A DNA stretch of 58,109 nucleotides from Rhodothermia bacterium (lineage in GTDB: Bacteria; Bacteroidota; Rhodothermia; Rhodothermales; JAAAOL01). Each line of letters starts with the position of its first letter. The stretch's first letter is position 1. This document shows positions 20,517-57,692 of the stretch, piece after piece. Made by a program: the position numbers and the translations under genes. The stretch covers positions 1-58,109 of the forward strand of contig JAUIDY010000024.1 of assembly GCA_030428385.1 (NCBI GenBank), in the 5' to 3' direction. The notes below the pieces were generated by a model. That model saw only the letters and a program-made list of their open reading frames with translations, had not been told where the DNA came from and ran no database searches.

Positions 20517-21029
20517 TCAGGGCAGTGCATCAAACGAAGCGGACGGGGCTTCGTCTTGAAAACCAACCAGCATCGCTTCCTGGGTGTCGCGTAGATACTT
20601 CACCCGCAGCGTGGTGCCGGGTCGCAGGTTGTACAACTCGGTACGCGGGATCAGCTTGGTGATTTCGGTCTGGAATGCCCCCTGATGCGGCGGCTGGATC
20701 TCGACCCGCATGCCCACCACGGGCTGCTCGTTGATCGTCGTTCCGGTCTCCCACGTTTTCACCAGCGTGGCATCGCCCAGCACGCCTTCGGCTTCAATCC
20801 GGCGGTGTACGCGGCTACGCACCACCTGCGCAGCAACGGCAAAGCCCACCATACATGCCATACACAATGCCATCCCCACCAGCGATACGCGGGTGAGCAG
20901 GGGCAGTTCGGCCCAGCCATACGAGCCTTCTGGCATCCCCATCATGCCGATGAACATGGTGGTGAACGGGATCCAGAACAGCCCAAAGCAGCGGCGACTG
21001 AGGCGTTTGAAGTGGTGATAGCGGTCCAT
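20517..21029 (-). CDS. Hypothetical membrane protein
   Basis: A 170-residue protein with two membrane helices (about 15-33 and 42-70), then a soluble C-terminal domain. That domain reads as mixed beta strands (DATLVKTWETG, VVGMRVEIQP, TTLRVKYL) and could be a small OB- or PH-like fold. No family recognised. The ATG at 21029 has a good GGAGG seven bases upstream, which decides it over an ATG at 21053. The bipartite TTTCCGGTTT-N10-TTGCGTAAAG element lies 43 nt (to its TTGCGT) before this start. Confidence 0.65.
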   Translation of the reverse strand: MDRYHHFKRLSRRCFGLFWIPFTTMFIGMMGMPEGSYGWAELPLLTRVSLVGMALCMACMVGFAVAAQVVRSRVHRRIEAEGVLGDATLVKTWETGTTINEQPVVGMRVEIQPPHQGAFQTEITKLIPRTELYNLRPGTTLRVKYLRDTQEAMLVGFQDEAPSASFDALP

Positions 21030-21068: not shown

Positions 21069-21098
21069 CTTTACGCAAACCCGCCCCCAAACCGGAAA
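21069..21098 (-). promoter_or_regulatory. Bipartite element, copy A (before 20517-21029)
   Basis: Minus strand reads TTTCCGGTTT, 10 nt, TTGCGTAAAG. The gap from the TTGCGT to the ATG is 43 nt. Same half-sites and spacing as copies B and C. The layout suits an alternative-sigma promoter or an operator. Confidence 0.6.
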
Positions 21099-21120
21099 CG
21101 CTCCGCCTCAACCAACTCGC

Positions 21121-24100
21121 TCAGTTGCCAACCGCAGGCGACGAAAACGGCGGTGGTGTGACGGTGGGAGCCGGTTCGGCCTCCAGCAGCCGCAGCGCTT
21201 CCTCGATGGCGCGGTCCAACTGCGGGTCGCGCCCTTCGGCCAGGGCCTGCGCACTCAGGCGCACCTCAATGTCGGGCGCTACGCCTTCATTCTCGGCAAT
21301 CCATTGGTTGTTGATCGGATCGAAGACGGCGTTGTCGGGGGCCGTAAGTGCCCCGCCGTCCACCAGCCCATAATGCACCGACGACTTGACCAGCCCGCCC
21401 CACGTCCGCATCCCGATGAGCGGCCCAGCTTGCTGCTGCCGGAAAACCCACGGGAAAAAGTCGCCGCCGGAGCCTGCTTTTTCGTTGATCAGCAGCACCT
21501 TGGGACCAAGAATCCCGGCAGGCAGACGGAACGGCTGTCCGTCGGGCACTTCGTTGGTGATCGCTGCCCGGAGCCGCCGCGTCATCAGGTCCACCATATA
21601 ATCATCCAACAAGCCACCGCCGTTGAACCGCTCGTCGATGATGGCGGCGGGTTTGTCCTGTTGCGCGAAGTAGTAGCGGTCGAAGGACACCACGCCTGCG
21701 CCGCCCGTATTGGGCACCCAGATGTAGGCGAGGCGTCCGTCCGAATGCTCCTCCACGTAGCGGCGGTTGTCCTCCACCCAGGCCCGCTGCCGCAGGCCAC
21801 CCTCGTTGCGGATAGGCTCGACGCTGACAGTCCACGCCCCTTCCATCGACGGCGCGTCGTTGATGTGCAGCACCGTTTGCCGGTCGGCGGTGCCATCCAG
21901 CAGGCGGTACGGGTTGTCATTGGCCGTTAGGGTACGCCCATCCACGGCAAGGAGGTAATGGCCTTCCTCGACGTTCAGCCCCGGGCGGTCCAGCGGGGCG
22001 TCAAGGCCCGGGTTCCAGCTTTCGGCGGTGTAGATACGCTGGAAACGCCAATGCCCCTCGTGCGCCTCGAAGTCGGCCCCGAGCAACCCGACGCGCACGG
22101 TGTCAACTGCCGGGAAGTCGCCGCCGAAAACAAAGCTGTGCCCCACCGAAAGCTCGCCGTTCATCTGATCGAGCAGGTAGCTCAAGTCCGTGCGATGGCG
22201 GACGTATGGAACGAGAGGTGCGTAGCGCTGACGGACCACCTCCCAGTCACGCCCGTGCAGGTTGGGATCGTAGAAAAAGTCGCGTTCGTAATGCCACGCT
22301 TCCTCGAAGATCTGCGTCCATTCTTCGCTGCGGTCGAGCCACATGCGCAGTTCCACGTTCAGCGTGCCGTCGCCGGGACCGGGTTTGGCGCCGGTATCCA
22401 CGATACGCCACGTTCCGCCCGTGCGGGCCAGCAGCTTCTTGCCGTCGTGCGAGACAGCCACCTGTTGCACGCCTTCGAGAAAGGCCTCGGCCTTGCGCTC
22501 TTCGAGCGTAAATTTGTGCAGCGTGCCGCCTCCGCGAATAAACACACTTCCCTCTGGTCCCGCCAAGGTTGCGAAATAGTTGCCCTCCGGCATCGGCAGG
22601 GGCACCGTGCGGCGGTCGAGGTTGTCGGCATCGATCTGCACGGTGACTTCCGCTTCATCATCGCTTTCTGCTTCATCGTCGCCTTCATCGTCCGAGGCAT
22701 CGTCTTCGACGGGTTCTTCATCGCTTTCAGGCGGGAACGGCGACGGATCGTCTTCGCGCAAAATGACCACATAGGCAGCCTGATCAGCGTCGGCTTTCAT
22801 GGCACTGGTGTTGGCCCACCCGGAGCCGAGCGCGACGTTGGTACTGGCGAGGAAATAGAGGTGCCGTCCGTCGCGGTCCCACGCGGGCGCATGCGCATCA
22901 GCAAGCGGATCGGTAAGCACGGTGGCCTCCTGCGTCTCCACGTTCCAGGCCCACACCCGCCGGAAGTTATTAGGGGCGGTTTTGGCGTAAGCCAGCCATT
23001 TTGAATCCGGCGACCACGTGATCCCGAGCCGCCCCCGCTCGATGTTGGTGCCGCCTACGTCGGCAGTGGTGATACGCTTGGTCTCCAGATTGAGCACCTG
23101 AATGCGCACGTCATCATCCACAAACGCCAGCCGCGTGCCATCCGGCGACCACGCAGGCTCCCATGCCATCTTCGACACGCCGATGGCGATGCCTTCGGGT
23201 TCGCTCAGCCCATCCTGATCCGCGAGCATCAATACGTAGCCGTCGCCGTCATCCGAGAACCACGCAATCTGGCTGCCGTCGGGCGACCAGAGCGGGGCGC
23301 GGTCGGCAACCCCCGAGGTACGGGTGAGGTTACGGGAATCGCCGTTTTCGATAGGCACGGTGAAGATTTCGCCGCGTGCTTCCATCACCGCTCGTTTTCC
23401 CGTCGGCGAGAGGGCGACGTTGCTGACACGGTCGCCCACAAATTCCCAGCCCGGCTCGGCCCACGGAAAATCGCCGCGCACGGTGAGGTGAAGTTGCTGG
23501 CTCTCGCCTGTGGCCGGATCGAAGGTGTGCAAATAGCCATCGCGCTCAAAGGCGAGCATCCCGGCCCCGCCTGTCAGCCACTTAACATCGGGTTCGTCGA
23601 AGGAGGTCACCTGGGCGACGGTGCCGCCTGCCGGGTCGTACGACCAGATGTTGACGGGTCCACTGCGGTCGGAGAGAAAATAGATCGTGTCGCCGAGCCA
23701 GACGGGGTGCGTGTCGGTGGTGCGCTCGTTGGGCAGCCACGTCTCGTCCAGCGTGTCGAGATTGAGCAGCACCAGCGGTGTGTTTTGCCCACCGCGATAG
23801 TCCTGGAACTCCGCCTCCCACCGATCCATGCGGTCGATGATGAGGGCGTTGCCGTCGGGCGAAAACGACCCGCGATGTCCCCAGGGTGCCGGCAATAGTT
23901 CTGGTGGCCCTCCATTGGCTGGGACGGTCCACAGCCGGTCGTGGCCCGATGGCGCGGTGCCGCGCGTGGAGGCGTAGAGGATGCGGCTCCCATCGGGCGT
24001 CCACCCCACGGTGTGTGTACCCGCCGGATACCATGTCAGCCGCGTGGGCGTCCCGCCGTTGACCGAAACCACGTACACCGCGTCCGTGCCCGAGCGGTTG

Positions 24101-24351
24101 GAGGTAAAAGCCAGCAATTGCCCATCCGGCGAGAAGTGCGGATTGCTCTCCACGGCGGGCGTGCTGGTAAGGCGACGGGCCTCGCCCCCTTCGCGGTCGG
24201 CGATCCACAAATCGCTGCCATACGCAAAGGCAACATGGGTGGCGCTGAGGGTGGGCTGGCGCAGCAGCCGGGTTTCGTCTTGGGCCTGAGCAGCAAGGGG
24301 CAACAGCAGCATGCCCAACCCCAGCATCAAAAAGGAGTACGTTTTTTTCAT
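21121..24351 (-). CDS. Tricorn protease-like S41 peptidase with N-terminal propellers
   Basis: A 1076-residue exported protease. Signal peptide 1-23 (ending AQAQ). About 35-670 are TolB/WD40-type blades (FSPDGQLLAF, WSPDGSQIAW repeats) forming substrate-filtering propellers. An acidic Asp/Glu-rich insert near 560-600 breaks the second propeller. The C-terminal part has a tricorn core, PDZ and S41 protease: SVGHSF supplies the His, GSGGD holds the nucleophile Ser at about 961, and NEGVAPDIEV the Glu. Tricorn is cytosolic in archaea, but bacterial homologues like this are often exported. The ATG at 24351 begins the signal peptide; a start at 24390 is less likely. Confidence 0.93.
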   Translation of the reverse strand: MKKTYSFLMLGLGMLLLPLAAQAQDETRLLRQPTLSATHVAFAYGSDLWIADREGGEARRLTSTPAVESNPHFSPDGQLLAFTSNRSGTDAVYVVSVNGGTPTRLTWYPAGTHTVGWTPDGSRILYASTRGTAPSGHDRLWTVPANGGPPELLPAPWGHRGSFSPDGNALIIDRMDRWEAEFQDYRGGQNTPLVLLNLDTLDETWLPNERTTDTHPVWLGDTIYFLSDRSGPVNIWSYDPAGGTVAQVTSFDEPDVKWLTGGAGMLAFERDGYLHTFDPATGESQQLHLTVRGDFPWAEPGWEFVGDRVSNVALSPTGKRAVMEARGEIFTVPIENGDSRNLTRTSGVADRAPLWSPDGSQIAWFSDDGDGYVLMLADQDGLSEPEGIAIGVSKMAWEPAWSPDGTRLAFVDDDVRIQVLNLETKRITTADVGGTNIERGRLGITWSPDSKWLAYAKTAPNNFRRVWAWNVETQEATVLTDPLADAHAPAWDRDGRHLYFLASTNVALGSGWANTSAMKADADQAAYVVILREDDPSPFPPESDEEPVEDDASDDEGDDEAESDDEAEVTVQIDADNLDRRTVPLPMPEGNYFATLAGPEGSVFIRGGGTLHKFTLEERKAEAFLEGVQQVAVSHDGKKLLARTGGTWRIVDTGAKPGPGDGTLNVELRMWLDRSEEWTQIFEEAWHYERDFFYDPNLHGRDWEVVRQRYAPLVPYVRHRTDLSYLLDQMNGELSVGHSFVFGGDFPAVDTVRVGLLGADFEAHEGHWRFQRIYTAESWNPGLDAPLDRPGLNVEEGHYLLAVDGRTLTANDNPYRLLDGTADRQTVLHINDAPSMEGAWTVSVEPIRNEGGLRQRAWVEDNRRYVEEHSDGRLAYIWVPNTGGAGVVSFDRYYFAQQDKPAAIIDERFNGGGLLDDYMVDLMTRRLRAAITNEVPDGQPFRLPAGILGPKVLLINEKAGSGGDFFPWVFRQQQAGPLIGMRTWGGLVKSSVHYGLVDGGALTAPDNAVFDPINNQWIAENEGVAPDIEVRLSAQALAEGRDPQLDRAIEEALRLLEAEPAPTVTPPPFSSPAVGN

Positions 24352-24439
24352 CGTCGCAGAAGAGAGAAGACCAAGAGGCTCTGGGAGCATACACGTTGGG
24401 CCGGAGAAATGCGAGACGGCAAACGCGGGTTAGATGTAC

Positions 24440-24472
24440 AAAAAAGCCCCGGCACGTTCTCGCGCCGGGGCT
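24440..24472 (-). terminator. Rho-independent terminator for the lipoprotein transcript
   Basis: On the minus strand AGCCCCGGC and GCCGGGGCT (24464-24472 and 24445-24453) form a perfect 9-bp stem with a 10-nt loop, followed by TTTTTT. It is the first terminator after the gene at 24711-25268. Confidence 0.88.
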
Positions 24473-24496
24473 ATCATGACGAAATACCCATTTCGT

Positions 24497-24684
24497 TTGT
24501 GGATGTCGGGATAGCGAAAAGGCTTCGTTTTACGTTCCCTCTCCCTCGATGGGAGAGGGACAGGGTGAGGGTGATTCGTTATACCGAGCAGAGCGCTTCT
24601 GTCAACGTATTTCCCCCTCACGCTGACTCCCTCCCACCAGGGGCGAGAGAACCCATTCCCGAAGGAATGTATCCAGACATCAAC
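24497..24684. repeat. Inverted pair of a REP-like repeat (copies 1 and 1')
   Basis: The left copy contains TTGTGGATGTCGGGATAG and TTCCCTCTCCC, then GGGAGAGGGACAGGGTGAGG. The right copy is a diverged reverse complement ending TATCCAGACATCAAC. A third copy lies at 41021-41099. The 'CCCTCTCCC.TGATGGGAGAGGG' core is a common bacterial interspersed repeat. Confidence 0.75.
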
Positions 24685-24710
24685 GAGGGCAGTTCGTATA
24701 AAACGCGGCT

Positions 24711-25268
24711 TTACGGCGAGACGGGACGGACGACAAAAAGCGCATCGACGAAGTTGGGCTCATCCGCCGCGCCCCACCCATCGGCGTGTAAATCCTCGAA
24801 GTCCACATGCACTTCGCGACCCGGCAGGTAGGTCACCTGCGCATGGCGCTGCCTGTCGGCGTTGCGCGACGGCGGTCCTGTCCGCCAGCGAAGCCCGGTG
24901 TCCTTTCCATCGGGCTCAAAGACGCGAATCTCGAAAATCAACTCGCTGTTTCGACGCACGGGTGGTAGTGCCACCACGGTGCCCGTTGCTTCGTCGGGGC
25001 CAATATAAAATTCCCGCCCCAGGCGCGGCCAGACGAGGTAAATCTCGTTGATGAAGTCGGAATTGGAGGCCAGGATTTCGACTTCCAGATGCCGTGCCAG
25101 CGCCCTGACCTTCCCGCTCGCACCGCGTGCGTATTGGTCCGGCGTGGTTTGTTCAGCGTAGACGGGATCAGACGTAGCATCGTCGAAGGAAGGGGCTGTA
25201 CTGTCGCATCCAGCGACCAGAAGCACGGCCATCATAAAGAGAAACAGGGCACGAACGTTGGAAGACAT
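24711..25268 (-). CDS. Hypothetical lipoprotein
   Basis: A 185-residue protein with a clear lipoprotein signal (FMMAVLLVAGC, lipidated Cys at about 21). The mature part has an all-beta look: VEILASNSDFINEIYLVW, FYIGPDEATGTVVAL, ELIFEIRVFEPDG, ending NFVDALFVVR. No family recognised; it may be a small jelly-roll or Ig-like surface domain. It follows the propeller gene at 25348 by 79 bp, but has its own bipartite element 42 nt upstream and its own terminator, so it may form its own unit. Confidence 0.7.
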   Translation of the reverse strand: MSSNVRALFLFMMAVLLVAGCDSTAPSFDDATSDPVYAEQTTPDQYARGASGKVRALARHLEVEILASNSDFINEIYLVWPRLGREFYIGPDEATGTVVALPPVRRNSELIFEIRVFEPDGKDTGLRWRTGPPSRNADRQRHAQVTYLPGREVHVDFEDLHADGWGAADEPNFVDALFVVRPVSP

Positions 25269-25306
25269 GGTAAATCCTCAATCGGGTGAAAAGGGAGCGT
25301 ACCCGG

Positions 25307-25336
25307 CCTCACGCAAAAAGCGCGAAAAACCGGAAA
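25307..25336 (-). promoter_or_regulatory. Bipartite element, copy B (before 24711-25268)
   Basis: Minus strand reads TTTCCGGTTT, 10 nt, TTGCGTGAGG. The TTGCGT half is 42 nt from the ATG at 25268. Half-sites and spacing are identical to copies A and C. Confidence 0.6.
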
Positions 25337-25347
25337 GGGGAGCGAAG

Positions 25348-28278
25348 TTATTTGATCAACGTGAGGTGCTTGGTCACCACCGTGTGTCCGGCCTGCACGC
25401 GGTAGAAATACGTCCCCGACGGCATCGCAGCCGCGTCGAAGCGCACAGTGTGGGCACCGGCCTCCAGCCTTGCGTCGGTCAGCAGTGCCATCCGGCGTCC
25501 GAGCAGATCGAACACTTCCAGCCGTACATCAGCGGCTTCAGGCAGGTGGAAGCGCAGCGTGGTGACCGGGTTGAACGGGTTGGGATAGGCTTCGGCGTTC
25601 AGGTCGTCTGCCGCCTGCATCGTCTCCGTCGCCGCACGGGCGTTTGGTTGTTGCCCAACCGTCGCGGCGGCATACGCCACGAGCCTGCCGTCGGGCGACC
25701 ACGCGGGGTCGAACACGCCGCCGTGGTCTGCGGCTACCAGCAGCGATGGCGCTCCCCGCAAGAGGCGGGTGTAAATCGCCCAGTCGCCTCCGCTGTTGCC
25801 GTTAAACACTAACAATTGGCTCGACGGCGACCACGCCGGGTTGGCTTCCAACTGCAGCGTTTGCGCCAACGGCACAGATGCTCCGGTGGGCGTGCCCAGC
25901 GCCGAAACGGGAATGCGGAAGAGGTCGCCCTTGTGAACGTAGGCAATGTATTTCCCGTCGGCACTCCACGCGGGGCTCGACGCATCCTCGGCCAGCAGCC
26001 ACTCCTGCCCCCGTCGCAGTTCCCGCGTCCGAATGGACTGGTCGCTGGGCTGGTAGAAAACGATGGCGCGGCCATTCGGCGACCAATCTCCATCCTGCGC
26101 ATCGGTGCGGATGGCACTGCGCCTGCTCGACGACATCGACACTACATACAGCGTCGGATCACACGCCGCGCCACTGCCCAGCGGACAGCGGTCGAACAGC
26201 ACCTGCTGCCCGTCCGGGCTGAAGGCCGCGTTGTTGCCGCCTTCGCCGCCCGCCAGCGGAGCACTGGTCCCTGCTTTCACCTTCGTCACATACAAATCCT
26301 GGCTGCGCCACACGCCGTTGCGGTCGAACACGGTGCCATCATGCACCACCAAGGTCCCGTCGGGCGACCAGTCGGGGTTAAACTCGCCCATGCCGTCCAG
26401 GGAGGTAACCCGGTTCGTTTTGCCCGTCTGCACATCGATGGTGTAGATGTCGTAATCGCCATACGCGGGGTTGGTCGCCTGAAGATCCATCGTGACACGC
26501 CCGCTGTCGTAGACGCTGCCGTACTGGTCGCGTACCGCCACCCCGAACGTAACCTCCAAAACGGCAGGGTTTTCGGGCAGCAGTTCCACCCAGACTTCGA
26601 GCAACGGATCATCGCCGATAAAAGTCAGCACGATACAATTGTTGTACGCGCCTGCATCGCAGGTCTGCTGACTCGGCAGGATTTTGAACTGGTCTGAGAC
26701 GTTCTTGCAACTACCGTCTGCCTTAGGCACACACACCTGCCCCACCGACAGGTTTTTGGTTTCGTAGAAGATGATTTCATCAAGGAGGCCGGGCACATAG
26801 AATGGAAGCAGGTTGCCCACCTCCAGCGCCATATCGACGGGCACCCACTCATACCGTGCAAGGTAGCTGCCGGAGAGGTTCGTGAAGTCCGGCGTGGCAT
26901 CGCCGTCGAAGTCCAGCGCGTCGGAGAAATTGAAGGACGACAGATACACCGTGCCGCTGGCGTCGTAGCGCACGCTGGCATTGCGTCCACCGTGCATGCC
27001 CGTGATGTCCTGCACCGATTCCAGACTGCCGTTGTCGTCGAACAACGCAAGGAAGGTAGCGGCGGTGCCGGGAGCTGTGAGGTCCGTGACGCCGTCTTCG
27101 TCGAAGTCGGCGGCTCCGGTATAGTTGCCTGTTACGTAGACCTGCCGCGTGCCCACGTTGGCAAACACGCCCGTTCCAGCATCGTGCTCCGCACCGCCCA
27201 TCACCCGCGTCCAGACCCTGCCTACACCTGCGTTCAGGTCATACCGCGCCAGAAACGCATCCCGCTGACCGTGGCTGGCGGGCGTCAGGTCTTCGGCGGT
27301 ACCAGTGAGGTAAAATCCCCTGGCCTGATCCTCAGCAAGGGCAATGCCTTCTTCCCGCGCATCGGCAGCCCCGAGGGATTCATGCACCGTGGTGGAAAGC
27401 AGAAACAGGGTGAAACAGGCAATAAAAGCATCCTGCTCGGGGACACCGTTGAACGGCGTGCTCTCCAGCGTGAATGTGTCGAAGGAAAGGGTCCCGGCAA
27501 AGGCGCCCGTGATACACAGTTCAGTGCTTCCCACGGCGATGTCGTTCGCCATGCTGTAGTCGGTGCCCGTGAGGTGAATGGCATCGGACGGCGTGCCCGT
27601 GTCTTTGTGAAAACGCGCCACAAAGACATCAAAGTCGTCGGGGTGGGCCGTTGGGGTTTGGAAGTCGACGGTGCCGTTGTTGTCGTAGTCGAACTGCTGC
27701 TCAAAACCACCCGTGATATACACCTCGGGAAGCAGCGCGGTTGGCGAAACGCCGATCCCCATCCCGATATCCTCGCCGACGCCCCCGGCACGCCGCGCCC
27801 AGCGCAGCGTGGGTCCATCGCCATCGGCAAACGATGCGATGAATACGTCGGTATCCGTCGTGGTGGAGAGGTCGGGTGTGCCGTCGCCATCGAGGTCGAG
27901 ACTTTCGCTGAACATGCCGGTCACGTAGACATGGCCGTCGCGGTCCAGCGCGATGCTTTCGACGGCATCGTTGGAGGCTCCGGTCAGGGTCACCACCCAT
28001 TGCAGAGCGAGGGCCTCGTTGTATTTCGCCAGAAAGCCGTCGCCCTCGTTGCTGGTGTGATCGACGACGCCATCGCCATCGAAGTCCACCGCGCCCCGAA
28101 ACGAACCCGCCACAAAGGCATGGCCGGACAAAGGATCGACGGCGAGGTCCCGCACCGTTACATCAGGATCATGGCCGAGGGGAATGACCTGCTCAAATTC
28201 CTGGGCGAGCACAGGAGCACGGATCAGCAAAAGGACAAGCAGGCAAGGCAACACGCGAAAAGAAAAAGGGCGAAACAT
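25348..28278 (-). CDS. Secreted SBBP/TolB propeller protein with T9SS tail
   Basis: A 976-residue secreted protein. The signal peptide runs to APVLAQ (about 20). The first half has SBBP-like blades (VYVTGMFSESLDLDGDGTPD, repeated with 'DxDxDGxxD' loops that look calcium-binding). After a linker domain the second half has PD40/TolB-type blades (NPDWSPDGTLVV, WSPNGRAIVF, PAWSPDGRLVA). The C-terminus has AYPNPFNPVTTLRF and ends in an 80-residue T9SS sorting domain. No enzyme motif is seen; a surface scaffold or binding role is inferred. The ATG at 28278 begins the signal peptide, 54 codons inside the longest frame. Confidence 0.85.
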   Translation of the reverse strand: MFRPFSFRVLPCLLVLLLIRAPVLAQEFEQVIPLGHDPDVTVRDLAVDPLSGHAFVAGSFRGAVDFDGDGVVDHTSNEGDGFLAKYNEALALQWVVTLTGASNDAVESIALDRDGHVYVTGMFSESLDLDGDGTPDLSTTTDTDVFIASFADGDGPTLRWARRAGGVGEDIGMGIGVSPTALLPEVYITGGFEQQFDYDNNGTVDFQTPTAHPDDFDVFVARFHKDTGTPSDAIHLTGTDYSMANDIAVGSTELCITGAFAGTLSFDTFTLESTPFNGVPEQDAFIACFTLFLLSTTVHESLGAADAREEGIALAEDQARGFYLTGTAEDLTPASHGQRDAFLARYDLNAGVGRVWTRVMGGAEHDAGTGVFANVGTRQVYVTGNYTGAADFDEDGVTDLTAPGTAATFLALFDDNGSLESVQDITGMHGGRNASVRYDASGTVYLSSFNFSDALDFDGDATPDFTNLSGSYLARYEWVPVDMALEVGNLLPFYVPGLLDEIIFYETKNLSVGQVCVPKADGSCKNVSDQFKILPSQQTCDAGAYNNCIVLTFIGDDPLLEVWVELLPENPAVLEVTFGVAVRDQYGSVYDSGRVTMDLQATNPAYGDYDIYTIDVQTGKTNRVTSLDGMGEFNPDWSPDGTLVVHDGTVFDRNGVWRSQDLYVTKVKAGTSAPLAGGEGGNNAAFSPDGQQVLFDRCPLGSGAACDPTLYVVSMSSSRRSAIRTDAQDGDWSPNGRAIVFYQPSDQSIRTRELRRGQEWLLAEDASSPAWSADGKYIAYVHKGDLFRIPVSALGTPTGASVPLAQTLQLEANPAWSPSSQLLVFNGNSGGDWAIYTRLLRGAPSLLVAADHGGVFDPAWSPDGRLVAYAAATVGQQPNARAATETMQAADDLNAEAYPNPFNPVTTLRFHLPEAADVRLEVFDLLGRRMALLTDARLEAGAHTVRFDAAAMPSGTYFYRVQAGHTVVTKHLTLIK

Positions 28279-28311
28279 GGGAGCGTCCGTTGGTGAAGGA
28301 AAACCTGCCCT

Positions 28312-28341
28312 CTTCACGCAAGACGCTGCGCAAACCGGAAA
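28312..28341 (-). promoter_or_regulatory. Bipartite element, copy C (before 25348-28278)
   Basis: Minus strand reads TTTCCGGTTT, 10 nt, TTGCGTGAAG. The TTGCGT half is 37 nt from the ATG at 28278. It lies in the 149-bp space shared with the divergent ECF sigma gene. Confidence 0.6.
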
Positions 28342-28427: not shown

Positions 28428-28991
28428 ATGAACGCACCATCTGACATCACGCAGCTTTTGCAGCAGGCCCAGCACGGGGATGGCGATGCCCTCAATCGCC
28501 TCTATCCGCTGGTCTACGACCACCTGCGCGAGATCGCCCACGGGCAACTGCGCCGCCGCCCCGGCGACACGTTCCAGACGACGGCGCTCGTCCACGAAGC
28601 CTACCTCAAGCTGTTCGACCAGCAGCAGGTGAGCGTGGAAAGCCGGGCGCATTTCTATGCCCTCTCGGCCCGCGCCATGCGGCATATCCTCGTCGACCAT
28701 TTTCGGCGCAACCACGCCCAGAAGCGCGGTGGGCACGGGGTCGTCCTGACGTTGAACGAAGGCGTCGTTCCCACCGAAGCACGCGGCGAGGTGCTGCTGT
28801 CCCTCGATGACGCGCTGCTTCGCCTGGCCCAGCACAACGAACGGCTCAGCCAGGTGGTGGAATACAAGTTTTTCGGTGGCATGACGCAGGAAGAAATCGC
28901 CGTAGTGCTGGGCATCAGCGACCGCACCGTGCGCAACGACTGGCGCAAGGCCCGCGCTTGGCTGGCGCATGAACTCGCCGAGTTAAGCTAA
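28428..28991 (+). CDS. ECF RNA polymerase sigma factor
   Basis: A 187-residue sigma factor. Region 2 reads ITQLLQQAQHGDGDALNRLYPLVYDHLREIAHGQL, and region 4 EEIAVVLGISDRTVRNDWRKARAWL contains the helix-turn-helix. The ALVHEAYLKL and RAMRHILVDHFRR motifs place it in the ECF group annotated as TIGR02999 (Acidobacteria/Bacteroidota type), usually paired with a Ser/Thr kinase rather than an anti-sigma factor. The ATG at 28428 is preferred over a TTG at 28416. Its TAA overlaps the kinase ATG by one base, so the two are translationally coupled. Confidence 0.92.
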   Translation: MNAPSDITQLLQQAQHGDGDALNRLYPLVYDHLREIAHGQLRRRPGDTFQTTALVHEAYLKLFDQQQVSVESRAHFYALSARAMRHILVDHFRRNHAQKRGGHGVVLTLNEGVVPTEARGEVLLSLDDALLRLAQHNERLSQVVEYKFFGGMTQEEIAVVLGISDRTVRNDWRKARAWLAHELAELS

Positions 28992-31774
28992 TGGCGCTGC
29001 ACTGGCAACAGATCGAATCCCTGCTGGACCACGTCCTTGACCTCGAACCGGAGGCGCAGGCCGCCTACCTCGATGCCCATTGCCCCGATCCCGAGGTACG
29101 CCGTTATATCGAGGACCTGATTCGGGCCGATGCCGACGCACCCGCGTTTTTGGACGAAGACGCCGTCCGGTTTGCTTCGCCACTGCTGGAAGCAGAGCCG
29201 ATGGGGTTGGGCGAGCGGCAGGTGGGACCGTATCGGCTGGTGCGCGAACTGGGGCGCGGCGGCATGGGCATTGTCTACCTCGCCGCACACGACGACCTCG
29301 ACCGGCAGGTGGCGCTGAAGCTCGTCCGGGGCGGCCTTGCCGACCCCACCGCCACCGCCCGTTTTCTGCACGAACGCCGCGTGCTCGCCCGCCTCGAACA
29401 TCCCAACATCGCCCGACTCTACGATGTAGGCGTCACCGACGACGGCACGCCGTACTTTGCGATGGAATGGGTGGAAGGCACGCCGCTCACCGATTTTTGC
29501 GATGCCCACCGCCTCGACATCACCGCCCGCCTGCGTCTGTTTGAGGCAGTGGGCCGGGCCGTCCAGCACGCGCACCAGCACTTCATCGTCCACCGCGACC
29601 TCAAGCCAAGCAACATCCTGGTGGCCGAAGAAACCTCCGACAAACCGCAGGTTAAGCTCCTCGACTTCGGCATTGCCAAGGTGTTGGCTGAGGCGGAAGA
29701 AGCCATCACCGCACCCCAGACCGAGACGGCCTTCCGACGGATGACGCTGGCCTACGCTGCGCCGGAGCAGGTACAAGGCACTGCCATCACCACCGCCACC
29801 GACGTATATAGCCTCGGCGTGGTGCTCTATGAACTCCTCACGGGGCAACGCCCCTATGCCATCCAGGGATCGGGATTGGAAGCCGCCCAGGCCGTGCTGA
29901 CCCAGGAACCCAAACGCCCCAGCACCATCCTGACAGGCAACGCCAGCACAACGGAAACCGCCAAAGCCCGCGCCACCACCGTCGATCAACTCAGCCGCCG
30001 GTTGCAGGGCGACCTCGACGTGATCTGCCTGAAAGCCCTCGCCAAAGAACCCGAGCGTCGGTATGCCAGCGCCGAGGCGTTTGTGGAAGATATCCGGCGG
30101 CACCTCGCGGGGTTGCCCGTGGCGGCGCGGCCCGCCACGGCGCGGTACCGCGTGCGCAAGTTCGTTCAGCGCCACCTGCAGGGCGTATTTGCTACCGCCG
30201 CCGCCGTGGGGCTGCTGGCCCTCGTTGTGACGTTTTATACCAGCCGCCTGCAAACCGAGCGTGATGCTGCCCAGCAGGAAGCTTACAAGGCCGAGCAGGT
30301 GGCGGCGTTTATGGCGGATTTGTTCTCGGCGTCGAACCCATGGGAAGAAGTGCAGGGCGACACGCTCCGCGCCCGCGACCTGCTGCAACGCGGCGCCACC
30401 CGCCTCGAAACCGAACTGGCCGATGAGCCGGAGGTGCAGGCCCGCATGATGCAGCACATCGGCGACCTGTACCAGCAGTTGGGGCTCTACGACGAAGCCA
30501 CGCGGCTGCTCGCGCAGGCCCTCGCCATCCAGCGCGAGACACTCGGCCCCACCCATCCCGACGTGGCCCGCACCCTGCGAGGACAGGCGTGGGTGGCCTT
30601 CCGGCAGGGCCACTTTTCGCTAGCCGACTCGCTGGCGCAACGTGCCCTCACGATCGACGAAAGCACGTTGGGGACTAGCAATTTATCCGTGGCGAAAGAC
30701 CTGGATGTGATGGCCCTCGCACGCAACGAGCAAGGCGATTATGCCGCCGCCGAGTCCTTACACCAGCATACGCTTGCATTGCGTCAGCAAGGCGGTGCTA
30801 CCGAGGTGGAGTTGGCGCAAAACTGGCATGAACTCGCCTCGTCCCTGGCCTCGCAAGGCGACTATGCGGCTGCCGAGTCGCTGGAGCAGGTGGCCCTGGG
30901 GCTGTACCGCGCCCATTACGATCCCAACCACCCCTCTATCGCCGAAGCGCTGAGCAACCTCGCGGCGTTTGCGGGTCATCTGGGCAAACTTGATGACGCC
31001 GAGACCTACAACCGCGAAGCCATCGCCATCAAACGCAGCGTCCTCCCGCCTGACCATCCCAACCTCGCCATGACGTTGAGCAACCTGGGCGTGGTGGTGG
31101 GTATGCTGGGGCGGTACGACGAGGCGGGCGAGTTGATGCGGGAAGGGCTGCGCATCCGCCGGGCCCGTTTCGGCGACAACCACCCGCTGGTAGCTTCGGC
31201 CCTGCGAAATCTGGCCCAACTGGCCATCCACCAGGGCGACCTGCCACTGGCAGAGACGTATGCACTCGAAGCGCTGGCGACCACCACCCGGGCGTTTGGC
31301 CCGCACCACCCCAGCGTTTCTGCCACCGAAGCCATCGTGGGCGACATCCGGCTCGACCGGGGCGACTTCGCCGGAGCGGAGCAGGCCTACCGGTCGGCGC
31401 TTGCCGTTGACCGCGCGGCCCTCGGCCCGGACCATGCCACCGTCGGCGGCGACCTGCACTACCTTGCCACCGCCCTCCTCCAACAACAGCACTACGCCGA
31501 GGCCGATTCGCTCTTTCAGCAGGCGCTGGCGATCCGCCGTGCGTCCCTCGGCGAAGATCACCCCAACAATGCCCCCACCTTGCGTAACCTTGGGCGGCTA
31601 TACGGCGAGACGGGGCGTTTTGCTGAGGGCGAGCCGTTGCTCCTGGAAGCGTTGCAGTTGCAAGTAGACGGTCTTGGCCCCGACCATCCCTACATTCCCC
31701 AGACCCGGCAGGTCATCGCCGACTTCTACAGGGCCTGGGGCAAACCGGACGAAGCCGCCAAGTATGTGGAGTGA
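28991..31774 (+). CDS. Ser/Thr protein kinase with TM helix and TPR domain
   Basis: A 927-residue membrane kinase. Order: a short helical N-region (1-75), a Hanks-type kinase with Gly loop GRGGMG (88-93), Lys110, HRDLKPSN (Asp203), DFG (225-227) and APE (257-259), one membrane helix at about 398-417, then TPRs of the 42-residue 'HPxVAxxLxNLA' type to the end. The TPR part is outside the cytoplasm if the kinase is inside, so it could sense a surface or periplasmic ligand. Catalytic residues are complete. It probably acts on the sigma factor just upstream, its usual partner, but that is inferred from position. Confidence 0.94.
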   Translation: MALHWQQIESLLDHVLDLEPEAQAAYLDAHCPDPEVRRYIEDLIRADADAPAFLDEDAVRFASPLLEAEPMGLGERQVGPYRLVRELGRGGMGIVYLAAHDDLDRQVALKLVRGGLADPTATARFLHERRVLARLEHPNIARLYDVGVTDDGTPYFAMEWVEGTPLTDFCDAHRLDITARLRLFEAVGRAVQHAHQHFIVHRDLKPSNILVAEETSDKPQVKLLDFGIAKVLAEAEEAITAPQTETAFRRMTLAYAAPEQVQGTAITTATDVYSLGVVLYELLTGQRPYAIQGSGLEAAQAVLTQEPKRPSTILTGNASTTETAKARATTVDQLSRRLQGDLDVICLKALAKEPERRYASAEAFVEDIRRHLAGLPVAARPATARYRVRKFVQRHLQGVFATAAAVGLLALVVTFYTSRLQTERDAAQQEAYKAEQVAAFMADLFSASNPWEEVQGDTLRARDLLQRGATRLETELADEPEVQARMMQHIGDLYQQLGLYDEATRLLAQALAIQRETLGPTHPDVARTLRGQAWVAFRQGHFSLADSLAQRALTIDESTLGTSNLSVAKDLDVMALARNEQGDYAAAESLHQHTLALRQQGGATEVELAQNWHELASSLASQGDYAAAESLEQVALGLYRAHYDPNHPSIAEALSNLAAFAGHLGKLDDAETYNREAIAIKRSVLPPDHPNLAMTLSNLGVVVGMLGRYDEAGELMREGLRIRRARFGDNHPLVASALRNLAQLAIHQGDLPLAETYALEALATTTRAFGPHHPSVSATEAIVGDIRLDRGDFAGAEQAYRSALAVDRAALGPDHATVGGDLHYLATALLQQQHYAEADSLFQQALAIRRASLGEDHPNNAPTLRNLGRLYGETGRFAEGEPLLLEALQLQVDGLGPDHPYIPQTRQVIADFYRAWGKPDEAAKYVE

Positions 31775-41899: not shown

Positions 41900-42994
41900 T
41901 CATTCCGCCTTCGGAGCCTGCAGGTCAAACCCGGCGGCCACCACGCGGATCGCCGACGGAACGCCTGCGTCATCGAGCGTAAACGTCACGTCGCCCGCCG
42001 TCCAGTGCATGGAAAAGTCGGTGGTGGAATGTGGGAGAAGCAACTGATTGGCGGCATCGCCCCCTTGCGCCCGGTTGAAGAGGTCGATGTACAGCGCATT
42101 GCCCTCGCGGAAGACGCGGCCCAGCGTGGTGCCCCCGGCCTGATACGTGCCCACGTAGCCATCCAACGTCGCGGGATCAAGCTGGACGATCGGCTCGGCG
42201 GGTGGGGGTGAGACGGGCGGCGGAAGCGTTTGGTCGAGTTCGCGGATCCAGATGTTGCGGAAGCGCACGGGATTGTCGTGGTCCTGTAAAATGAGCGGCA
42301 GCCGGGGCGCGTGCGACGTGTAAGGCAGGTGCTGCAACCAACTCGTGGGTCCCCAATACGCCGTGTGATCCTGCACCAGCACGCCGTTGTGGATCACGGT
42401 GATACGGGCGGGCTCTTTCAGGCTTCCATCCGGGGCAAAATGCGGGCGGCGGAAGATGATGTCGTACGTCTGCCACTCGCCGGGCGGGCGAGCCACGTTG
42501 ACGAGTGGCGGAGCCTGCCCGTAGGCGGCAGCGGCCTGCCCGTCGGGATAGGTGTCGTTTTCGTACGAGTCGAGCACCTGTATTTCATAATGCCCCATCA
42601 AGAAGACACCGCTGTTGCCACGTCCCTGCCCGCTCCCTACGGCAGGCACCGGAGCGGCCCATTCCACGTGCAGTTGCACGTCGCCAAAGGCCTGCTTCGT
42701 CTGGATAAAACCGGAGCCCGCTACGGTCTCCATATACCCGCCTTCTACTTTCCACGGCGCCGCGCCGCCGTTCACGCTCTGCCATTTCGAGAGGTCGGTG
42801 CCATCGAACAGCACGATAGCATCGGAGGGCGGGGCAACGGGACCCGTGGCTGGGCCGGGCGTCACCACCACGGGACGGGGACGGGTGAAGTCGTGGGCTT
42901 TCCAGCCTTCGTCGGTCTGAGCAAGGGCATCACCTGCCAGCAGCAAGACGCCGAGCAGGAGAACGAGGGTGGTGGATCCGTACGGTGTTGTCAT
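41900..42994 (-). CDS. DUF1080 protein (3-keto-disaccharide hydrolase-like), exported
   Basis: A 364-residue protein. The signal peptide ends DALAQ (about 26). The central domain is DUF1080, a LamG-like jelly roll: IVLFDGTDLSKWQSVNGG, WKVEGGYMET, NSGVFLMGHYEIQVLDSYEN, and WQTYDIIFRRPHF. Members cleave 3-keto-glucosides or bind polysaccharides. The last 80 residues form a separate small beta domain (LDGYVGTYQAGGTTLGRVF) like DUF3471, which may stabilise or bind. No gene for the 3-keto pathway lies beside it. Confidence 0.9.
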   Translation of the reverse strand: MTTPYGSTTLVLLLGVLLLAGDALAQTDEGWKAHDFTRPRPVVVTPGPATGPVAPPSDAIVLFDGTDLSKWQSVNGGAAPWKVEGGYMETVAGSGFIQTKQAFGDVQLHVEWAAPVPAVGSGQGRGNSGVFLMGHYEIQVLDSYENDTYPDGQAAAAYGQAPPLVNVARPPGEWQTYDIIFRRPHFAPDGSLKEPARITVIHNGVLVQDHTAYWGPTSWLQHLPYTSHAPRLPLILQDHDNPVRFRNIWIRELDQTLPPPVSPPPAEPIVQLDPATLDGYVGTYQAGGTTLGRVFREGNALYIDLFNRAQGGDAANQLLLPHSTTDFSMHWTAGDVTFTLDDAGVPSAIRVVAAGFDLQAPKAE

Positions 42995-54219: not shown

Positions 54220-54804
54220 ATGCCTCAGGACCCTGACATCACCCAACTGCTCGAACAAGCTGCTAACGGCAATGAATCTGCCCTAACCAGCCTGCTGCCC
54301 GTGGTTTATGACGAGATGCGGCGGCTCGCACACCGCCAACTCCAGGGCGAGCGCCGCGACCATACGCTCAACACCACGGCGCTCGTCCATGAGGCGTACC
54401 TCAAGCTGGTGAAGCTGGAACGCATCCGCTGGCAGAACCGGGCGCAGTTCTTCGCGCTGGCGGCGCAGGCCATGCGGCGCGTGCTGGTCGACTATGCTGT
54501 GAAGCGCAAGGCCCTGAAACGCGGCGGCGGGCAGGCCCATGTTTCGCTCGAAGACGCCACCGTGCTTTCCGAGCAGCAAGCCGAATCCATCCTCGCCCTC
54601 AACGAAGCGCTGGAGCGCCTCAAAGCCATCAGCGAGCGCCAGCATCAGGTCGTCGAATACCGCTTTTTTGCGGGCCTCAGCATTGAAGAAACTGCCGACA
54701 TGCTTGATATCTCCATCGCCACCGTCAAGCGCGACTGGGCTGTGGCCCGCGCCTGGCTGAACCGCGAACTCCAGCACGAGCCGGTGCTTTTGAACCCGGA
54801 ATGA
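54220..54804 (+). CDS. ECF RNA polymerase sigma factor (second)
   Basis: A 194-residue ECF sigma of the same group as the one at 28428. Region 2: ITQLLEQAANGNESALTSLL; region 4: EETADMLDISIATVKRDWAVARAWLNREL. ALVHEAYLKL and QAMRRVLVDYAVKRKALKRGG are conserved. The ATG at 54220 is used, as the longer frame adds a non-conserved stretch. Unlike the first pair it is separated from its kinase by 212 bp containing inverted repeats. Confidence 0.92.
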   Translation: MPQDPDITQLLEQAANGNESALTSLLPVVYDEMRRLAHRQLQGERRDHTLNTTALVHEAYLKLVKLERIRWQNRAQFFALAAQAMRRVLVDYAVKRKALKRGGGQAHVSLEDATVLSEQQAESILALNEALERLKAISERQHQVVEYRFFAGLSIEETADMLDISIATVKRDWAVARAWLNRELQHEPVLLNPE

Positions 54805-54851
54805 GCCGGTTGAACCAGCGTTGCGGCTTGTGTTGAGGGAGAGCGGTTGGA

Positions 54852-55004
54852 AGTATGGGGGTGTGGGAGAAAGGGAGTGTGGGAGAGGGATTTGACGAAA
54901 CGGGGAATCTTCGATGCGTTGGCGCTTCCTTTTTTTTGATTCTACCAGACACCCCTTCATCTCTCCAAACCATAGTTACTCCCATACTCAACACCCCCCA
55001 TACT
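54852..55004 (+). repeat. Inverted G-rich/C-rich repeats between sigma and kinase genes
   Basis: AGTATGGGGGTGT at 54852-54864 pairs with ACACCCCCCATACT at 54991-55004 (one bulge) around a 126-nt loop. The G-rich side also repeats as GTGTGGGAGA / GTGTGGGAGAGG. The right arm ends 12 nt before the kinase ATG, so a hairpin would place the start codon at its base. Confidence 0.5.
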
Positions 55005-55016
55005 CCCAAACCAACC

Positions 55017-57692
55017 ATGACCGCATCCGACTGGGAACACATCCAAGACCTGTTCGCCGAGGCGCTGGAACGCCCCGCCGACGAGCGGGCGGCGTTTCTG
55101 GATGCGGCGTGTGCCGAAGCCCCAGCGCTGCGGGCCGAGGTGGAGTCGCTGTTGCAGGCCGCCGATGCCGAGGGCCCCTTCGACGCGCTGGCGAACGACT
55201 TGGGGGCGCTCTCTACCCATGTCCACGCCGACCCCGATGCCAACCGCCGCATCGGGCCGTATCAGTTGGTAGAGCGGATCGGCGAGGGTGGCATGGGCAC
55301 CGTCTACCGCGCCACCCGCGCCGACGGGCAGTTCGAGCAGCAGGTGGCGCTCAAGCTCATCCATCGCCATGCGGGCACGCCCGAGCGCCAGCGCCGCTTC
55401 CTCACCGAGCGGCAGATCCTCGCCCGGCTGCACCATCCACACATCGCCCAGTTGCACGATGGCGGCGTTACCAACGATGGCGCGCCGTACTTCGCGATGG
55501 AATATGTGGAGGGCCAGCCCATCGACGCCTACTGCGACACCGGGCGGCTACCCATCGAAGACCGGCTGGCGCTGTTTATGCAGGTCTGCGAAGCTGTGCA
55601 ATACGCCCACCGCAACCTCGTCGTTCACCGCGACCTCAAGCCCGGCAATATTTTGGTGACGCAACAGGGACGGGTGAAGCTGCTCGACTTTGGCATTGCG
55701 AAGCTGATGGACGATGACGCCGACGCGGCTACCCAAACGACGATGCCGATGACGCCCGCCTATGCCAGCCCCGAGCAGATGGGCGGCGGGACGATTACGA
55801 CGGCGAGTGATGTGTATCAACTCGGCGTGGTGCTGTATGAACTGTTAACCGGGCAACGCCCCTACGACGTGCGCCACCTTAGCCCCAGCGAAGCCGAACG
55901 CGTCATCCGCGAGCGGGAGCCTGCCCGTCCCAGCACCGCCATCACCCGCACCGATCCCACTTCCACCGACATCACCCGCACACCCGAAGCCATCAGCGCG
56001 GCCCGTTCCACGCATCCGGCGGCCCTGCAACGCCACCTCGCGGGCGACCTCGACGTGATGGTGCTGCGGGCGCTGCACAAAGAACCCGAACGCCGCTATG
56101 CCTCTGCCGAGGCCTTCCTCGACGACATCAAACGCTACCTCGCCGGGCTCCCCGTCACCGCCCGCCCTGACACGTTTTCGTACCGGGCCGCCAAGTTTAT
56201 ACGTCGCCACCGCCTCGGCGTCACCGCTGCCGGGCTGGTGGTGATGGCGTTGCTGGTGGGATTGGGCGGCACGCTGTGGCAGGCCCAGAAGGCCGCGCAA
56301 GAACGCGACGAAGCAGAACGGGCCATGACGCGCTCCGACCACATGGCGACGTTTCTGCTGAGCCTCTTCGAGAGTGCTGACCCGCTGCGTGCCCACGCCG
56401 ACTCCATCACCGCCCGCGAGATCCTCGACGCCGGGGCCACCCGCATCGAACAAGAACTCGCCGACCAGCCCGATGTGCAGGCCGCATTGTGGGACGCCAT
56501 CGCGTTGGTGAACCAGAACCTCGCCCGCTACGACGAAGCCCTGACGCTCACCGAGCGGGCCTATGAGACCCGCGTGGCGCTTTACGGAGCGGAACACCCC
56601 GACGTCGCCACCAGCCTGATGCGCCTCGCCGAGTGGCACATCCAGCAGGGCAACTACGACACCGCCGACTCGCTTCTCCGCCCGGCACTCGCCCTGCAAC
56701 GCCGCCTGCTGGGCAACGACCATCCCGACGTGGCGACGACGCTCGACAACCTCGGCGATGTGGTGCTGGAAACCGGTAGCATCGAAGATGCCGAGCCCCT
56801 GTACCGCGACGCCCTCGCCATCCGCCGCGATGCCCTCGGCGACAGCGCCCCGGAAGTCGCTACCAGCCTGAACAGCGTGGCGACGGTGCTGTATATGCAA
56901 AACAAGCTAAACGACGCCGAGCCGCTTTTCCGCGAAGCCCTTGCCATCCGCCAGCAGGCCCTTGGCCCAGAGCATCTGGATGTAGCGTCGAGCTTCAACA
57001 ACCTCGCGATTGTGCTGGATGCGCTGGGCAAACAGGACGAAGCCGAACCGTTTTACCGCCGCGCCTTGGCGATGCGCCAGGAACGCCTCGGCGACATGCA
57101 CCCGTTTGTGGCAACGAACCTGAACAACCTCGCCTACCTGCTCTACGCGCAGGGCAAATACGACGAGGCCGAACCGCTGTACCGGCAGGCCCTCGCCATC
57201 AACCGCAAGGCGTTCGGCAACGAACACCCCGACGTAGCCATCCGCCTGAACAACCTCGCCCGACTGTTGCAGGAGAAAGGGCAGTACGACGAAGCCATCG
57301 CGATGCACCGCGAAGCCCTCGCCATCCGCCGCGCCGTCTTCGACGATCCGCATCCGCACATCGCGCACACGCTGCACAACCTCGCGGGCGTATACCACGA
57401 ATTGCAATACTGGAATCAGGCGCTACCGCTCTACCGCGAAGCCCTCGCCATCCGCCAGCAGGTGTTGCCTGCGACGCACCCCCTGATCGCGTCTACGCAA
57501 AGCAGCCTCGGCGACTGCCTGCGCAGGACCGGTCAGCTTGAAGAAGCGGAAACACTGCTCCTTGGTGCCCTCGCCATTGTGGAAGCCGCGCCGGAGGGCC
57601 AGGAACGTCTGCTCGGCAATACCCGCGCCCGTCTTGCCGACCTATACGAGGCGTGGGAGCAACCCGACAAGGCGGAGACGTATCGGGAATAG
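55017..57692 (+). CDS. Ser/Thr protein kinase with TM helix and TPR domain (second)
   Basis: An 891-residue membrane kinase, paralogue of 28991. Gly loop GEGGMG (89-94), Lys113, HRDLKPGN (Asp206), DFG (224-226), SPE in place of APE (about 251-253), one membrane helix at 401-421 and about ten 42-residue TPRs (ATSLNSVATVLYMQNKLNDA, ATNLNNLAYLLYAQGKYDEA). The ATG at 55017 gives an N-terminus that aligns with the first kinase. The frame is open 54 codons further up, to an ATG at 54855. Complete catalytic residues. Confidence 0.94.
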   Translation: MTASDWEHIQDLFAEALERPADERAAFLDAACAEAPALRAEVESLLQAADAEGPFDALANDLGALSTHVHADPDANRRIGPYQLVERIGEGGMGTVYRATRADGQFEQQVALKLIHRHAGTPERQRRFLTERQILARLHHPHIAQLHDGGVTNDGAPYFAMEYVEGQPIDAYCDTGRLPIEDRLALFMQVCEAVQYAHRNLVVHRDLKPGNILVTQQGRVKLLDFGIAKLMDDDADAATQTTMPMTPAYASPEQMGGGTITTASDVYQLGVVLYELLTGQRPYDVRHLSPSEAERVIREREPARPSTAITRTDPTSTDITRTPEAISAARSTHPAALQRHLAGDLDVMVLRALHKEPERRYASAEAFLDDIKRYLAGLPVTARPDTFSYRAAKFIRRHRLGVTAAGLVVMALLVGLGGTLWQAQKAAQERDEAERAMTRSDHMATFLLSLFESADPLRAHADSITAREILDAGATRIEQELADQPDVQAALWDAIALVNQNLARYDEALTLTERAYETRVALYGAEHPDVATSLMRLAEWHIQQGNYDTADSLLRPALALQRRLLGNDHPDVATTLDNLGDVVLETGSIEDAEPLYRDALAIRRDALGDSAPEVATSLNSVATVLYMQNKLNDAEPLFREALAIRQQALGPEHLDVASSFNNLAIVLDALGKQDEAEPFYRRALAMRQERLGDMHPFVATNLNNLAYLLYAQGKYDEAEPLYRQALAINRKAFGNEHPDVAIRLNNLARLLQEKGQYDEAIAMHREALAIRRAVFDDPHPHIAHTLHNLAGVYHELQYWNQALPLYREALAIRQQVLPATHPLIASTQSSLGDCLRRTGQLEEAETLLLGALAIVEAAPEGQERLLGNTRARLADLYEAWEQPDKAETYRE

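Follow-up and report, generated by a model that had tools for sequence, protein, structure and literature searches.

A bipartite element that occurs three times in the window (the whole stretch of 58,109 nucleotides analysed here, which is contig C203 of a draft genome of 6.19 Mb) most probably acts as the promoter for a small set of genes for envelope and exported proteins, a regulon driven by a kinase-activated, ECF43-like sigma factor whose gene starts at position 28428. This reading builds on features of the sequence, namely the element itself, its rarity, its genome-wide restriction, its position before gene starts, the company that it keeps and the sigma-kinase gene pair. The initial annotation had taken it for a regulon's promoter or operator and had named this sigma factor as a possible driver; this proposal gained support from a scan of the genome and from a further exact site of a looser form of the element, found before the kinase gene of the closest sister sigma factor.

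Copies of the element in the window

As had been reported, three copies were found on the minus strand (Table 1), all of them exact matches to the pattern TTTCCGGTTT-N10-TTGCGTRARG, whereas in dinucleotide shuffles 0.00 copies were expected, even with three mismatches allowed. The distances between TTGCGT and the ATG were re-measured and gave the same values as before (43, 42 and 37 bases for the gene starts at 21029, 25268 and 28278, respectively). The N10 stretch and the flanking bases were not alike among the three copies, so they do not stem from a recently duplicated segment. The genes downstream had been described as unlinked, but all three lie within 7.8 kb on one strand, in a co-directional cluster that starts at the divergent ECF sigma gene, the sole gene interleaved among them being that of the Tricorn-type protease.

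A weaker variant of the element had also been put forward upstream of the DUF1080 gene at 42994. This site was rejected as a copy, as it was missing from the genome-wide scan at two mismatches. The sequence there, TTGCCCC-N..-TATGTTGC, looks by eye more like a TTG/TAnnTTTG promoter of the housekeeping type, as in Bacteroidota-like bacteria.

Table 1. Element copies, target genes and sigma-kinase genes, with the sites of a second element found at another locus of the genome.
Feature	Position	Strand	Description
Copy A	21069-21098	-	TTTCCGGTTTGGGGGCGGGTTTGCGTAAAG; TTTCCGGTTT-N10-TTGCGTAAAG; located between two genes of the same strand
Copy B	25307-25336	-	TTTCCGGTTTTTCGCGCTTTTTGCGTGAGG; upstream of gene 24711-25268
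Copy C	28312-28341	-	TTTCCGGTTTGCGCAGCGTCTTGCGTGAAG; in the 149-bp divergent spacer between gene 25348-28278 and the ECF sigma gene
Target A	20517-21029	-	170 aa membrane protein, one predicted transmembrane helix, no known family
Target B	24711-25268	-	185 aa predicted lipoprotein, LLVAGC lipobox, no known family
Target C	25348-28278	-	976 aa secreted SBBP/TolB-type beta-propeller, T9SS type A C-terminal sorting domain (TIGR04183)
Non-target	21121-24351	-	Tricorn-type S41 protease with beta-propeller; no element copy upstream
Target on C145			477 aa leucine-rich-repeat (LRR) protein with T9SS sorting domain; exact core site upstream
Target on C205			269 aa protein with signal peptide; exact core site upstream
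ECF sigma (L033)	28428-28991	+	187 aa; PF07638 / TIGR02999
Ser/Thr (Hanks-type) kinase	28991-31774	+	927 aa; PF00069 1.7e-47
C16-type element sites	L167/L168 (C16), L166 (C7), L169 (C80), L170 (C188), L171 (C145, weaker)

Distribution in the genome and in the order

When the full pattern was searched in its own genome with up to three mismatches, the three window copies, one good site on contig C145 and two background matches were obtained. The core form, TTTCCGGTT-N12-TGCGTRA, yielded exactly five exact matches in the 6.19 Mb genome, against about 0.006 expected by simple base counting; no further site appeared at one mismatch and six did at two mismatches, and two controls run on the same genome, the reversed pattern and a spacer one base off, gave no exact match. 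Random or intragenic occurrence had been named as the finding that would speak against a regulatory element, but every exact core match was intergenic and correctly oriented, with its CGT 37-49 nt upstream of the start codon of a gene whose product is exported or membrane-bound. All five target proteins are predicted to exit the cytoplasm or to sit in the membrane, and the element provides a functional context for exported proteins that are otherwise without names.

The looser form TTTCCGGTT-N14-CGT had six exact matches genome-wide, again all of them intergenic and with the CGT 37-49 nt before a start codon, the sixth being the site at the kinase gene of the sister sigma factor (L036). The expected enrichment 30-60 nt before gene starts was thus observed: all six exact sites were in this range, compared to 0/22 of the one-mismatch background sites whose context could be judged, a set in which L149, at 99 nt, is a real paralogous site (Fisher P = 2.7e-6).

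A scan of relatives had been proposed too; a pattern search of first 99 genomes and then the whole order (probably Rhodothermales) found the core in none of the 113 other genomes, and this lack of conserved copies counts against the promoter reading. A one-mismatch match in genome G050 was rejected as a conserved copy, as by eye it apparently lies inside a receptor-like coding sequence. The best matches to the sigma factor in relatives were only about 55-60% identical; the nearest related sigma loci (57-60% identical) showed no convincing TTTCCGG-N-CGT promoter, and local repeats were not in excess at related loci from other genomes.

The sigma factor, its kinase and their paralogues

The product of the sigma gene comprises sigma2 and sigma4 only, as in the ECF-type layout, and it matched PF07638 (1.4e-51) and TIGR02999 (216.5 bits vs. 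a cut-off of 126). A QTTA motif at residues 50-53, whose first Thr is residue 51, replaces the acidic DxxD of region 2.2. QTTA has been reported as the consensus of the ECF43 group (PMC13147305), in which the region 2.2 threonine is phosphorylated by a neighbouring kinase, encoded adjacently (PMC13147305, PMC8999054). In the kinase encoded next to the sigma factor, the kinase domain (81-360) is followed by one transmembrane segment (398-416) and then by TPR repeats, a domain that appears to be located outside the cytoplasm; its gene overlaps the sigma stop codon, and thus both genes are probably co-transcribed. The TIGR02999 match, the QTTA motif and the overlapping membrane Ser/Thr kinase gene together point to an ECF43-like sigma factor.

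From these data we infer promoter function for the element, its recognition by the sigma factor at 28428, activation of the latter through phosphorylation by the kinase, and a role in the envelope. The sigma factor would presumably be inactive until phosphorylated, at or near Thr51/52 of the QTTA motif, by the membrane Ser/Thr kinase encoded beside it. In complex with RNA polymerase, the ECF43-like sigma factor would then read the element, with TTTCCGGTT as the -35 box contacted by sigma region 4 and TGCGTRA as the -10 box contacted by sigma region 2, and the three local genes would be turned on along with the two distant ones (the LRR/T9SS gene on C145 and the gene for a secreted protein on C205).

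The genome contains 30 strong paralogues of this ECF sigma type, 27 of them followed by a kinase gene and 28 accompanied by a divergent gene, and a TTA-like tetrad is present in nearly all. The closest to the sigma factor at 28428 is L036, on contig C64 (65% identical; sister with support 100/99), and in the regions that read the promoter both carry DHFR and RTVRNDW, in place of the DYAR and TVKRDW that prevail among the remaining paralogues. This close kinship, together with the exact site of the looser form before the L036 kinase gene, speaks for recognition of the element by the sigma factor at 28428. The element could instead be an ECF promoter used by another of the approximately 30 paralogues, such as L036, or by several that act crosswise, although we regard this as unlikely. 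At the L036 locus, the kinase gene is preceded by an identical -35 box and the divergent gene by a one-mismatch version of it, and two of the five core sites are on contigs C145 and C205, where no ECF sigma of this family was found. However, the -10 sequence of the L036 sites is YCGTATTC and not TGCGTRA, which separates the two sets, and three of the five core sites are found no more than 7.4 kb from the sigma gene at 28428, one of them in its own divergent spacer, thus favouring the sigma factor encoded there.

A second pair of the same type is present in the window (region 54220-57692; ECF gene at 54220-54804 and kinase-TPR gene at 55017-57692). A divergent gene accompanies it as well, and no repeated promoter private to this pair was recognised.

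Geometry of the proposed promoter and comparison with known systems

ECF promoters have a spacer of about 16 bp between their two boxes, and the arrangement TTCCGG-N16-CGT fits this geometry. Canonical -10 and -35 sequences contain CGT and AAC, respectively (PMC8103513); CGT was present in the -10 sequence (TGCGTRA) of all five core sites, whereas AAC was absent from the -35 sequence (TTTCCGGTT) of all five. The element thus resembles canonical ECF promoters in its two short boxes, its spacer, the CGT of its -10 box and the short leader, but differs in the -35 box, and also in that no copy was found on the plus strand before the sigma gene in pattern scans of the window and the genome, so that no direct autoregulation is visible. 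Both differences count against the promoter reading.

An operator, to which a repressor or an activator acting on a conventional promoter would bind, is in our view a quite improbable alternative. The conserved halves are 20 bp apart, which is two helical turns, and such a fixed spacing would suit a dimeric or tandem binding protein; moreover, dependence on the sigma factor is a prediction from sequence. Nevertheless, the two halves bear no relation to one another, neither forms a clear palindrome, the constant distance of 37-49 nt to the start is in keeping with a core promoter, and the -10 half carries the CGT of ECF promoters. The upstream stretch examined in the five targets had no housekeeping-type TAnnTT[GTC] box either, a weak argument, as only 61/337 control regions have one and its absence in the targets is therefore uninformative. 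That the element is a repeat, an RNA-level leader element or a chance similarity with no regulatory role is highly improbable, since it can draw only on the limits of sequence evidence, whereas the number of exact matches far exceeds expectation, with none intragenic and all at one distance from starts, the differing flanks and N10 are not those of a mobile repeat, and the conserved bases would sit mostly upstream of the transcript.

Taking the element as the promoter of the sigma factor at 28428, the system is similar to the pairs of ECF43 and Hanks-type kinase EcfP/PknT of Vibrio parahaemolyticus and EcfK/PknS of Xanthomonas citri, in which the sigma gene likewise adjoins a membrane Ser/Thr kinase gene, the DxxD of region 2.2 is changed to xTTA with a proposed phospho-threonine, and no anti-sigma factor is seen alongside. 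It differs from them in the number of such sigma genes in one genome (30) and in its putative targets, which are envelope/T9SS-type proteins and not T6SS or polymyxin resistance. Many paralogues per genome with differing promoter preferences are also known from sets such as the sigmaI factors of cellulolytic bacteria, although these belong to another sigma class and have another signal-sensing partner, which here is a kinase. In a literature search no promoter consensus for ECF43-type sigma factors was found, although published predictions may exist.

Other bipartite elements at sigma-kinase loci

When the regions upstream of genes were searched without bias for gapped repeats, the window copies were recovered, along with an element at the sigma-kinase locus on contig C16 (sigma L022), TTTGGGGAAA-N11-YGCGTCATG. 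It had five exact matches genome-wide (C7, C16 twice, C80 and C188) and one two-mismatch site on C145, all of them intergenic; two of the five exact copies adjoin their sigma gene, and among the genes downstream several are for lipoprotein-like or exported proteins. As an independent second instance of this layout, the C16 element speaks for the promoter reading. Therefore, at least one other sigma factor, that of the C16 locus, would have a multi-copy bipartite promoter of its own.

Further candidates had fewer copies. At the C35 locus (L073), two copies of GAGCCAATC-N12-CTGTGATAA were found, and the genome has no further close copy; in the form TGAGCCAATC-N12-CTGTGATAA, one precedes the divergent gene of sigma L028 and the other a gene some 9 kb distant. 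The C237 locus (L060, sigma L015) has two copies of GAGCCAAT-N16-CGTWA, also noted in the form CCTGAGCCAAT-N16-CGTWA, before the kinase gene and the divergent gene, and the position before its own kinase suggests feedback on the kinase.

Where both regions could be compared, the divergent gene and the kinase gene of one locus were more similar upstream than such genes from different loci (Mann-Whitney P = 0.0008), a point in favour of the promoter reading. In contrast, sigma similarity and promoter similarity did not covary significantly over all paralogues (permutation P = 0.15), with agreement in only the closest pairs, and this lack of overall covariation is a further point against the promoter reading. 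As same-locus repeats scoring 15 of 17 also occurred at some loci without a strong ECF sigma of this family, such scores are unspecific and reliance was placed only on scores of 16-17, on the comparison of divergent and kinase genes and on genome-wide counts.

On this basis, several paralogous sigma factors seem to have promoters of their own, although for most of the 30 a search for an own promoter identified none. A more tentative idea, which we hold to be possible but somewhat doubtful, is that about 27 kinase-sigma-promoter channels act in parallel, each sigma factor reading its own two-box promoter; if true, the genome would hold a large natural collection of envelope regulons that are phospho-activated and for the most part insulated. 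It offers in any case two well-defined candidate promoters of kinase-activated sigma factors, with five sites each, and several weaker ones, and as each is tied to a sigma-kinase gene pair, promoter recognition and the insulation of channels become testable.

Some further similarities between loci were also noticed. Similar elements, TGGCCCCYGTTTGG..CAGACTGCGTC, lie about 42 nt before genes on C237 (L060:628-1599) and C146 (L065:4907-6938), which are two separate sigma-kinase loci. The divergent gene of sigma L029 (L074, C133, at about 3892), a sigma factor without an adjoining kinase, is preceded by TTTGGGGATT-N11-CACGTCATGGTGAATAA, which resembles the C16 element; cross-regulation is possible. 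Finally, a GC-rich inverted repeat, TAGGGGTCGCCCCCyGTGGCGACCCTG, is common to the regions upstream of the kinases of the sister sigma factors L011 and L012 (L057:6423-9113 and L058:72-2813).
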